A stretch of 64,000 bases of DNA from Gemmatimonadota bacterium (lineage in GTDB: Bacteria; Gemmatimonadota; Gemmatimonadetes; Longimicrobiales; Gaopeijiaceae): positions 62,001 to 126,000 of the forward strand of contig JAJCZZ010000010.1 of the NCBI GenBank assembly GCA_029262115.1, written 5' to 3'. The notes beneath the pieces were generated by a model. It was not told where the DNA came from. It did not search any database and saw nothing but the letters and a program-made list of their open reading frames with translations. Made by a program: the position numbers and the translations under genes. Each line of letters starts with the position of its first letter. Within the stretch, counting starts at the first letter, position 1. Below are positions 54,412 through 58,165 of this stretch, one piece after another.

Positions 54412-55302
54412 CTACCCCCCCAACCTCCGCACGAAATCCGCAGCCAGTACTCCCGTCATCACCTCTTCCACCGGCCCCCGCAGCACCACCTGCCGCTCGG
54501 CGCTCACCGTTGCCGTCAGCGTCCCGCCCACCATGTCGATATGCACCGGCCCCGGTGCCATCCCCCGCGACACGGCGGCAACCGCCACCGCACATGAGCT
54601 CGTGCCCGAAGCGGTCGTGGGTCCGACCCCCCGCTCCCAGATCAACGCCCGACACCGATCGGAGCCGCTCACCTCGGCCAACTGCACGTTCGAGCCATTG
54701 GCCAGCGATGGGTGAGCCGTCAGAAACCGGCCCACTTCAGCGAGCCGCTCGTCGGTCATCGGTTCGCCCCAGACGACCATGTGGGGATTGCCGACCCCCA
54801 CCGGGACCAGGTCGAGCGCCTCCCCGTCCGGACCCTCCAACCGGCCATCGCCATCGAGGGCGGAGGCGTCCATCGCCACCGCGGCCGGACCCACCTCCGC
54901 CGCGCCCATGTCGACCGAGATGTCGTAGGTGCCGGCCGAATGCGCGTGGACCGTCATCGCAACCCGGTCGCCACCGACCTCGATCGTGAACGGCTCATCG
55001 CCGACGTGTCCTTCGCGGTGGAGATACGAGCCGAGCACACGCAGCCCGTTTCCGCTTCGTTCGAACTCGCCGCCGTCCGGGTTGAACATCCGGAGACGGA
55101 ACACGCCGCCCGATCGGTCCGCGAGGAGGACCACGATCCCGTCGCCTCCCGGCCCCCGCAGGCGCTCGCAGGTGGCGGACACGGCCTCGGGTGAGGCCGG
55201 CAGATCACCTCCCTCCTCGAACACGAGGTAGTCGTTTCCGAGTCCGTGCGCCTTGTAGAACGACGCTGCCAGGCTTGGTCGCTCCGCCCACAGCCCTGTC
55301 AT
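54412..55302 (-). CDS. dapF: DapF-family protein with serines in place of both catalytic cysteines
   Basis: A 296-residue protein of the diaminopimelate epimerase fold: FYKAHGLGNDYLVFEE, FNPDGGEFERSGNGLRVLGSYL, VGVGNPHMVVWGEP, NVQLAEV, ERGVGPTTASGTSSCAVAVAAV. True DapF uses two cysteines, in CGNGxRC and ACGTGxCA. Here these are Ser83 and Ser232; Val89 also replaces a usual Cys. So it may not epimerise L,L-diaminopimelate. In the related proline racemase family, changing a catalytic Cys to Thr or Ser goes with dehydratase activity, so a different reaction is possible. AAGGAG lies 7 bases before the ATG. It stands alone, away from other lysine genes. The fold is certain, the function is not. 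Confidence 0.8.
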   Translation of the reverse strand: MTGLWAERPSLAASFYKAHGLGNDYLVFEEGGDLPASPEAVSATCERLRGPGGDGIVVLLADRSGGVFRLRMFNPDGGEFERSGNGLRVLGSYLHREGHVGDEPFTIEVGGDRVAMTVHAHSAGTYDISVDMGAAEVGPAAVAMDASALDGDGRLEGPDGEALDLVPVGVGNPHMVVWGEPMTDERLAEVGRFLTAHPSLANGSNVQLAEVSGSDRCRALIWERGVGPTTASGTSSCAVAVAAVSRGMAPGPVHIDMVGGTLTATVSAERQVVLRGPVEEVMTGVLAADFVRRLGG

Positions 55303-55495
55303 TCAGCCGCTCCTTTTTACCGTTTGACGACCGGATTCTCCCGAATCCACCTCGCACGCCCTTTCGGTGCGCGGACGTGACCAACTTCGCGTAGCGGGCC
55401 TCGGCCGACCATCCGGGTGGGCGCGGTCCGCAACCTTTGGCCTCCGAGCCCCGTCCGAGGTAGGGCGACGAACACGTTCATTTGGGTGGATGACG

Positions 55496-58165
55496 ATGAG
55501 TATATACAGGACCCTTGCCGTGACCGCTGGCCTGCTGGTAGCCGGGGGCGCCTCTCTCAGCGGGCAGACCGCAGGCGACGGCGGAGTGATCTCGACGGGC
55601 GCGCCGACCCCGAAGGTCGTGCCCGGGTGCTGCACCGGCGATGCACCCGTCCTTCAGGCGACCCGCCTCGTCGGCAGCATCGAGATCGACGGTCGGATGG
55701 ACGACGAGGGGTGGCGGCTCGCCCCCGTCGCGGCCGAGTTCGTCCAGTTCGAGCCGCGTGAGGGCGCTCCGGCGACGGAGCGGACGGAGGCTCGGGTGCT
55801 CTACGGACCGGATGCTCTGTACGTCTTCCTCCGCGCATGGGACAGCCGGCCCGACAGCATTGCCGGCCAGCTCACACGCCGCGATCAGGACTCGTATTCC
55901 GACCTGCTCGGTGTGGTGGTCGATTCGTACTTCGACCGGCGCACGGCCTTCCACTTCGCGGTAAATCCGGTCGGGGTCAAGCACGACATCTACCGGTTCG
56001 ACGACACCTCGGAGGACGGGGGATGGGACGCGGTCTGGGACGTCGAGACCTCGGTCGACGAGAGCGGATGGTCCGCCGAGTTCCGCGTCCCCTTCTCGCA
56101 GCTCCGGTTTGGGAGCGGCGCCGATCAGACGTGGGGCATCAACTTCACCCGGGAGATCGCGCGCCGGGACGAAACCGACGTGTGGGCGCCCACGTCCCCG
56201 CAGGAGTCCGCGCTCGTGTCGCGCTTCGGGGAGCTGCGCGGCCTGATCGGGCTGGAGGCTCCGAACCGGTTGGAGTTGGTGCCGTACTCGCTCGTCGGGC
56301 TGGAACGGGCGCAAGGCGATGTCGCCAACCCGTTCTACTCGGAAAATCAGATGCTCGGCGCCGCGGGCGCGGACCTCAAGTACGGCGTGACCAGCGACCT
56401 GACGCTCGACGTGACGCTGAACCCGGACTTCGGCCAGGTGGAGGCCGATCCCGCTCAGGTGAATCTGTCCGCGTTCGAGACCTTCCTACCCGAGCGTCGT
56501 CCCTTCTTTTTGGAGGGCGCGAGCATCTTCAACTTCGGGATCGCGCTCGGAGACGGCGACGACGCCAACGAATCGCTCTTCTACTCGAGACGCATCGGCC
56601 GGGCCCCTCAGGGGAAGTTCGATCCACGCGGCGGGTACGGGGACGCCGACGACCGGACGACGATCCTCGGCGCCTGGAAGCTGTCCGGGAAGACCCAAGG
56701 AGGGTGGTCGATCGGTGCGCTGCACGCCGTCACCTCGGAGGAGTCCGCACGGATCGCTCCCGCCACCGGTGATCGCTTGAACGAAGAGGTCGAGCCGTTT
56801 TCCAACTATGGGGTGCTACGGGTCCAACGGGACTTCCGCGAAGGGCGAAGCGCTCTGGGTGTGATCGGAACGCACGTGAATCGCGACAAGCAGGTGGCGG
56901 ACGCGCTCGGGCTCCGTTCGAGCGCCTTCGCGGGCGGGCTCGACTTCCGCCACCGCTTCGCGGGCGAGACGTACCAGGTGAGCGGATATTTGCTGGGATC
57001 GCACGTCCGAGGCTCCACCGAGGCCATCACCTCCACCCAGCGCTCGCCACTGCGCTACTACCAGCGTCCGGACGCCGATCACGTCGACTTCGACCCGACC
57101 CGGACGTCGCTGTCGGGGGGCACCGCGTTCTTCAACTTCGAGAAGATCGCCGGGGAGCACTGGCGCTTCAGCACCGGCATCCACACCCGCACGCCCGGCT
57201 TCGAGGTCAACGACATCGGCTTCCAGAACGACGCGGACTCCTGGTCGAGCTGGTTCTGGGTCGGATATCGGCAGACGACGCCCCAGGGCCCGTTCCGCCG
57301 GTGGAATCTGAACACGAACGGATGGGCGGGCGGGAACTACGGAGGAAGCCGACGAGGTCCCGGGATGAACGTCAACGGGAACGTCCAGTTCAAGAACTTC
57401 TGGCACGCCTACGCCGGCGTGAATCGGGACACGGGCGGGTTCTCCGGTCAGTTCCTCCGCGGCGGCCCCTTGTTCCGCATGGAGGCCCGCACCAACGGCT
57501 GGGGAGGCTTCGGCACCGACTCACGGAAGCCCGTCATGTTCAACCTGAACGGATGGGGGAACGTGAGGCCGGAATCCGACTCCTGGGCCTTCGGGCTCTC
57601 GCCCAACATCCGGATTCGTCCCTCTGGTCGGGCCACCTTCCAGGTCGGTGCGCAGGTCAATCGCACGGCGAACGACAACCAGTGGGTGGACCGTGTCGAC
57701 GGGGCGGAGCCGACGTACCTGTTCGGTCGGATCGACCAGAAAACGGTCGGCATCACCGTGCGCGCCGACTACGCCTTCACGCCGACCCTGTCGCTGCAGC
57801 TCTACGCGCAGCCGTTCGTGAGCGCGGGGACGTACGAAGAGTTCAAGCGCGTGGCGGATCCGCTGGCCGCGGCATACGGCGACCGGTTCGTACCGGTGAC
57901 CGGTTCGGGCGCGTTGGATCTGGATCTCGATGGGTCGCCCGACGTGGAGGTCGACCCGGACTTCAACGTGAAGCAGTTCCGCTCGAACGCGGTGCTGCGG
58001 TGGGAGTACCGGCCGGGGTCGAGTCTCTTCGTGGTGTGGTCGCAGGGGCGGAACGCGTTCTCCCGGGATGGTGCGTTCGATTTCTCCGATGACTTTCGTG
58101 GACTGTTTTCGGAGCCGTCGGATAATGTGCTGATGGTGAAGTGGAGTTACTGGATCAGCCGGTGA
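55496..58165 (+). CDS. DUF5916 outer-membrane protein with CBM9-like N-terminus
   Basis: An 889-residue exported protein. A signal peptide (YRTLAVTAGLLVAGGASLSGQ) is followed by a CBM9-like beta-sandwich (IEIDGRMDDEGWRLAPVAAEFVQFEPREGAPATERTEARVLYGPDALYVFLRAWD... WDAVWDVETSVDESGWSAEFRVPFSQLRF) and a DUF5916 beta-barrel (TLNPDFGQVEADPAQVNLSAFETFLPERRPFFLEGASIF... LMVKWSYWISR). Members are common in Gemmatimonadota and related phyla. It may bind or import carbohydrate-like material; the substrate is unknown. The start at ATG 55496 is better placed behind GGTGG than 55490; the frame extends upstream to 55367 with arginine-rich, non-protein-like sequence. Confidence 0.87.
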   Translation: MSIYRTLAVTAGLLVAGGASLSGQTAGDGGVISTGAPTPKVVPGCCTGDAPVLQATRLVGSIEIDGRMDDEGWRLAPVAAEFVQFEPREGAPATERTEARVLYGPDALYVFLRAWDSRPDSIAGQLTRRDQDSYSDLLGVVVDSYFDRRTAFHFAVNPVGVKHDIYRFDDTSEDGGWDAVWDVETSVDESGWSAEFRVPFSQLRFGSGADQTWGINFTREIARRDETDVWAPTSPQESALVSRFGELRGLIGLEAPNRLELVPYSLVGLERAQGDVANPFYSENQMLGAAGADLKYGVTSDLTLDVTLNPDFGQVEADPAQVNLSAFETFLPERRPFFLEGASIFNFGIALGDGDDANESLFYSRRIGRAPQGKFDPRGGYGDADDRTTILGAWKLSGKTQGGWSIGALHAVTSEESARIAPATGDRLNEEVEPFSNYGVLRVQRDFREGRSALGVIGTHVNRDKQVADALGLRSSAFAGGLDFRHRFAGETYQVSGYLLGSHVRGSTEAITSTQRSPLRYYQRPDADHVDFDPTRTSLSGGTAFFNFEKIAGEHWRFSTGIHTRTPGFEVNDIGFQNDADSWSSWFWVGYRQTTPQGPFRRWNLNTNGWAGGNYGGSRRGPGMNVNGNVQFKNFWHAYAGVNRDTGGFSGQFLRGGPLFRMEARTNGWGGFGTDSRKPVMFNLNGWGNVRPESDSWAFGLSPNIRIRPSGRATFQVGAQVNRTANDNQWVDRVDGAEPTYLFGRIDQKTVGITVRADYAFTPTLSLQLYAQPFVSAGTYEEFKRVADPLAAAYGDRFVPVTGSGALDLDLDGSPDVEVDPDFNVKQFRSNAVLRWEYRPGSSLFVVWSQGRNAFSRDGAFDFSDDFRGLFSEPSDNVLMVKWSYWISR

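Follow-up and report, generated by a model that had tools for sequence, protein, structure and literature searches.

The gene at positions 54412-55302 (minus strand) of the window, that is, of the whole 64,000-nt stretch of Gemmatimonadota DNA that we analysed, encodes a DapF homologue with serine in place of both catalytic cysteines, and we conclude, with a probability of roughly 0.68, that it is a functional DAP epimerase with Ser/Ser as its acid-base pair. Its activity is argued for by the sequence, the binding pocket, the presence of only one copy, the accompanying pathway genes, the predicted fold and the repeated origin of the variant. DapF is the textbook case of a thiol/thiolate pair that abstracts a very weakly acidic hydrogen; its cysteines are regarded as indispensable, and they are the attachment point of aziridino-DAP inhibitors. 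A natural, essential-looking Ser/Ser DapF offers a direct test of the requirement for sulfur in this chemistry, and predicts cell-wall synthesis that is not blocked by thiol-directed DapF inhibitors. Single natural serines are already known in the related proline racemases. A natural double-serine DapF appears to be new within the openly licensed literature, in which we found no report of one, nor of any working double-serine member.

The open reading frame is complete, starts with ATG and encodes 296 amino acids. In a search with curated HMMs the product matched TIGR00652 over its full length (residues 14-287) with 175.2 bits, against a cut-off of 114.65 bits; it contains two PF01678 domains, and no other Pfam family was matched at E-values up to 1. 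Solved DapFs read EMCGNG or EQCGNG at the first catalytic site and LACGTG or QACGTG at the second. At the first, corresponding to Cys75 of the Anabaena enzyme and Cys73 of the H. influenzae enzyme, the window protein has Ser83 (codon AGC, 55054-55056, minus strand); at the second, corresponding to H. influenzae Cys217, it has Ser232 (codon TCG, 54607-54609, minus strand). Val89 replaces the nearby third cysteine of the CGNGxRC motif, and GND, MFN, GNPH, SGNG, NVQ and ERGVG are all intact. This alignment agrees with an earlier note on the same DNA, which had described all three cysteines as changed and GNPH, SGNG and ERGVG as kept; its judgement that the case is unusual is also supported. A degraded pseudogene is ruled out, as the reading frame is open and the pocket conserved. 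By family model, fold and pocket fit the protein is a DapF, yet it has Ser83 and Ser232 where the family has its two catalytic cysteines, and we therefore class it within the DapF family as a Ser/Ser variant, one that probably has DapF function. It also serves as a warning that annotation by family model silently includes enzymes without the catalytic residues.

In the complex of Anabaena DapF with a DAP analogue, the reacting end of the ligand is contacted by Asn13, Gly76, Asn77, Gly225 and Thr226, and the distal end by Asn66, Asn164, Asn197, Glu215 and Arg216 (PMC12039745). All ten contacts are present in the window protein, as N23, G84, N85, G233 and T234 at the reacting end and N74, N172, N205, E223 and R224 at the distal end; of the residues known to contact DAP, only the two cysteines are changed. 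Gly84 and Asn85, in the SGNG motif (residues 83-86; 55045-55056), are the counterparts of the residues whose backbone amides hold the proximal carboxylate. Asn172 in the GNPH motif (171-174; 54781-54792) and Asn205 (codon 54688-54690) correspond to the distal-carboxylate binders Asn164 and Asn197 of Anabaena, and Glu223 and Arg224 in the ERGVG motif (223-227; 54622-54636) to Glu215 and Arg216, which hold DAP at its distal end (all features on the minus strand). Across 184 Ser/Ser sequences N23, N74, G84, N205, E223 and R224 are invariant, N85 (183/184), G233 (182/184) and N172 (180/184) are nearly so, and position 234 is always Thr or Ser. The new activity proposed in the earlier note is unlikely, since every DAP-contacting residue is kept. 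In Cys/Cys proteins from other orders of the same class (L225, L227, L229-L235, L237 and L258-L277) the Asn of GNPH is largely lost, the motif reading mostly VPH, and to judge from their sequences these enzymes may bind DAP differently. Because Asn172 is kept in the Ser/Ser proteins and largely lost in these relatives, the Ser/Ser proteins are closer to the textbook DAP pocket at this position.

An AF2 model of the window protein had a mean pLDDT of 95.4 and a pTM of 0.91, and in it both serines directly precede helices (residues 84-96 for Ser83 and 233-245 for Ser232). The closest PDB structures are all DapFs, with TM-scores of 0.71-0.85 by query length, and the engineered C73S (2q9h) and C217S (2q9j) proteins are also among the structural matches. 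An alignment of Ser/Ser with Cys/Cys proteins revealed no extra base or Ser-activating residue consistent across both Ser/Ser groups; positions 18, 126, 221 and 92 differ between the two sets, without a consistent new base.

The window protein is the sole PF01678/TIGR00652 protein of its genome (G000; 5.45 Mb, 95.7% complete), and of 59 relatives in its order 57 gave a DapF match, each apparently a single gene; a profile search of all these genomes detected no second PF01678 protein in the order. In the order, 54 genomes, including that of the window, allowed both catalytic residues to be read, and all 54 are Ser/Ser. A scan of a genome collection gave 56 Ser/Ser loci from Gemmatimonadota, which overlap partly with the genomes just described, and two loci that end before the second site. 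Elsewhere in the phylum the 36 genomes read are all Cys/Cys, 30 from other orders of the same class and six from another class of the phylum. The 69 sampled sequences from Acidobacteriota divide into 43 Ser/Ser, 24 Cys/Cys and two Cys/Ser, and Alphaproteobacteria are Cys/Cys, rarely Cys/Ser. In all, the 284 loci comprise 184 Ser/Ser, 94 Cys/Cys, four Cys/Ser and two incomplete sequences, and the reverse Ser/Cys state was found in none of the 284. The natural Cys/Ser DapFs are L198, L288, L112 and L325, two from Acidobacteriota and two from Alphaproteobacteria; with the Cys/Cys and Ser/Ser enzymes they form a ready-made series for gauging the contribution of each residue. The Ser/Ser clade that the earlier note proposed looking for thus exists, in the order of the window and also in Acidobacteriota. 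Chance, a sequencing error or one aberrant genome is ruled out by the fixation of Ser/Ser across the order and its occurrence in 184 sequences, among them those of three single-contig relatives (G005, G022 and G025). We conclude that Ser/Ser is typical of the whole order and of much of Acidobacteriota, usually as the only copy, so that the two serines probably take over the role of the two cysteines.

Two further observations concern individual records. One contig titled Gemmatimonas phototrophica (L051) encodes a Ser/Ser DapF of the type found in the other order, and the record is probably misnamed. Some Acidobacteriota encode a divergent Cys/Cys DapF-like family that scores below the DapF cut-off and reads SNGSRA and GETLxCGTG (L253-L256, from G157, G110, G167 and G146); it is the sole TIGR00652-type match in some genomes, and in G146 it stands beside a Ser/Ser DapF. 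G135 and G176 have a weak second DapF-like match similar to that of G146.

In a tree of 147 sequences, built without the two trait columns, Ser/Ser requires at least two separate origins, one for the large groups of Acidobacteriota and Gemmatimonadota and the other for L289/L293, which are nested among Cys/Cys and Cys/Ser sequences. In a tree of 47 sequences the main Ser/Ser group of Acidobacteriota was not sister to that of Gemmatimonadota, which implies three changes, with weak support at that point. We set aside a single origin because the starred branches of the tree cannot be explained with fewer than two changes; when a single Ser/Ser clade was put to the AU test, the result was only borderline (p = 0.053) and does not formally reject it. 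At site 83 the serine codon is AGY in all but one of the Gemmatimonadota sequences and TCN in nearly all of those from Acidobacteriota. AGY and TCN codons are more than one mutation apart, and each is a single mutation from the cysteine codons TGY, which makes independent Cys-to-Ser replacements likely, though not proven. On the tree, then, there are at least two origins of Ser/Ser, and probably three.

The gene content of the genome points to a need for meso-DAP. LysA scored 473 bits against a cut-off of 298, and DapB was above its cut-off in the window's genome and in 46 of the 59 genomes searched. The aminotransferase route that the earlier note had suggested searching for has a DapL-like candidate in the window's genome, but its scores are under both curated DapL cut-offs (467.6 versus 593 and 480 versus 507), so that this step of the pathway is tentative. 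MurE of the same genome and of 20 relatives carries the DNPR motif, which has been reported to confer D-centre specificity for D,L-DAP (meso-DAP) and has been noted in a Gemmatimonadetes MurE (PMC9434261). A bypass through a recognisable meso-DAP dehydrogenase was looked for and not found: no protein of the genome or its relatives exceeded the cut-off of 180.6 bits, the only matches being short and of Rossmann type, with 20-29 bits. The combination of DapB, a DapL-like aminotransferase, LysA and a DNPR-type MurE with no recognisable dehydrogenase indicates that meso-DAP is needed and has no other recognisable source. With DAP-route genes present and the window gene the sole copy in its genome and relatives, the secondary DapF beside another lysine route that the earlier note had offered is not supported, and the second dapF that it had proposed looking for was not found in the genome. 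A search of the openly licensed literature yielded no measurement of the cell-wall diamino acid in these organisms.

The simplest interpretation is that the enzyme runs the usual DapF cycle, in which Ser83 and Ser232 would serve as acid and base. Deprotonation of serine would be helped by the helix dipoles and by closure of the pocket, and the enzyme's rate would presumably be sufficient in the cell. Against such a pair, a serine hydroxyl gives up its proton much less readily than a thiol. Engineered Cys-to-Ser changes, made singly in a DapF-like histidine racemase, greatly reduced turnover (PMC11602996). The earlier claim that such an enzyme cannot work with two serines is nevertheless too strong, since a 4-hydroxyproline epimerase of the homologous proline racemase superfamily works with Ser93 and Cys236, a precedent for natural serine at the first site; in a Ser/Thr enzyme of that superfamily, a dehydratase, the serine is described as catalytic (PMC4113996), and EcL-DER, a natural Cys-to-Thr racemase, is active (PMC8142540). 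A possible benefit of Ser/Ser is immunity to thiol oxidation, which is plausible because Corynebacterium DapF is described as redox-sensitive, with oxidised and reduced structural forms (PMC5296763). We lean slightly towards the wider view that meso-DAP is made throughout the order, and in much of a second phylum, by a cofactor-free Ser/Ser epimerase, in which an alcohol/alkoxide pair would carry out 1,1-proton transfer at the alpha-carbon, which would have originated independently two or three times, possibly via Cys/Ser, and which would be insensitive to thiol reagents and oxidation.

Among known systems, canonical DapF (TIGR00652, PF01678; Anabaena 9mro, P. aeruginosa 8qzy, H. influenzae 1gqz) shares with the window protein its fold, length, DAP contacts, catalytic sites at helix N-termini and pathway context, and differs in having cysteine at both catalytic positions and at that of Val89. 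The engineered H. influenzae C73S and C217S proteins carry the identical substitutions singly, whereas the window protein has both, naturally and fixed across an order. The Ser/Cys 4-hydroxyproline 2-epimerase and the Ser/Thr trans-3-hydroxyproline dehydratase have the same two-domain fold and a natural first-site serine that is described as catalytic, but belong to another family with other substrates, and the examples described are never Ser/Ser; moreover, their catalytic serine is positioned by an Asn at +3 (PMC4113996), where the window protein has Gly86 and all Gemmatimonadota Ser/Ser sequences have Gly. Pfam, which gives PF01678 alone at E-values up to 1, does not place the window protein in the proline racemase superfamily. 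The cofactor-independent histidine racemases (HisR, CntK) have a DapF-like fold, with Cys/Cys sites and a different substrate.

It is unlikely that the Ser/Ser protein has too little epimerase activity, or none, and is retained for binding or regulation, with meso-DAP supplied by an unrecognised enzyme such as a PLP racemase of broad specificity or a new kind of dehydrogenase. The loss of turnover on Cys-to-Ser engineering (PMC11602996) is what this alternative would expect, and three acidobacterial genomes (G135, G146 and G176) each have a DapF above the cut-off together with a divergent DapF-like gene; the former is Ser/Ser in G135 and G146, and the latter, read in G146 only, is Cys/Cys. The cultured Chloracidobacterium thermophilum is also unable to make lysine (PMC4376005), although the tie to a DapF sequence in our set is uncertain. 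However, the whole catalytic pocket is conserved, including Asn23, Glu223, Arg224 and both helix N-termini; the window's own order has neither a second PF01678 protein nor a DAP dehydrogenase above cut-off; and serine itself is fixed at both sites across the order, without drift. Were the Ser/Ser protein not an epimerase, a whole order with meso-DAP-requiring lysine and cell-wall genes would have no known way to make meso-DAP.

The same difficulty confronts a different reaction on a DAP-like substrate, which we consider improbable: racemization or epimerization of another amino acid, or a dehydration or elimination like that of the Ser/Thr dehydratase. Cysteine replacement does accompany dehydratase activity in some clusters of the proline racemase superfamily (PMC4113996), and DapF relatives with a changed substrate exist (histidine racemase and O-ureidoserine racemase), but the residues that contact DAP are conserved at both the proximal and the distal end, DAP carries no 3-hydroxyl that could be eliminated, and the genome, with its lysA and meso-DAP-type murE, would be left without a recognisable DAP epimerase. 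Nor do the relevant models fit, the window protein scoring 10.7 bits with histidine racemase CntK (NF033599; cut-off 300) and 44.5 bits with the bifunctional DapF/glutamate racemase (NF038284; cut-off 350). Very improbable is a one-sided enzyme in which only one serine, or water or another residue, is catalytic and conversion is slow or biased in direction. The Thr/Cys aspartate/glutamate racemase EcL-DER, with one cysteine changed to threonine, is reported to be irreversible (PMC8142540), and the Cys/Ser state was found four times and Ser/Cys never; on the other side, no replacement base stands out, and the equal fixation of both serines suggests that both are used.

The Gemmatimonadota neighbourhoods contained no lysine operon or cluster around dapF, a point against the DAP epimerase reading; LptF/G-like permeases, metH and transport genes recur there. 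In its favour, the Ser/Ser dapF of two acidobacteria (L089 and L091) has lysA within 5 kb. In the window, a long open reading frame (55367-58165, plus strand), whose product is apparently secreted or in the outer membrane, is divergent from dapF, with the two starts close together.
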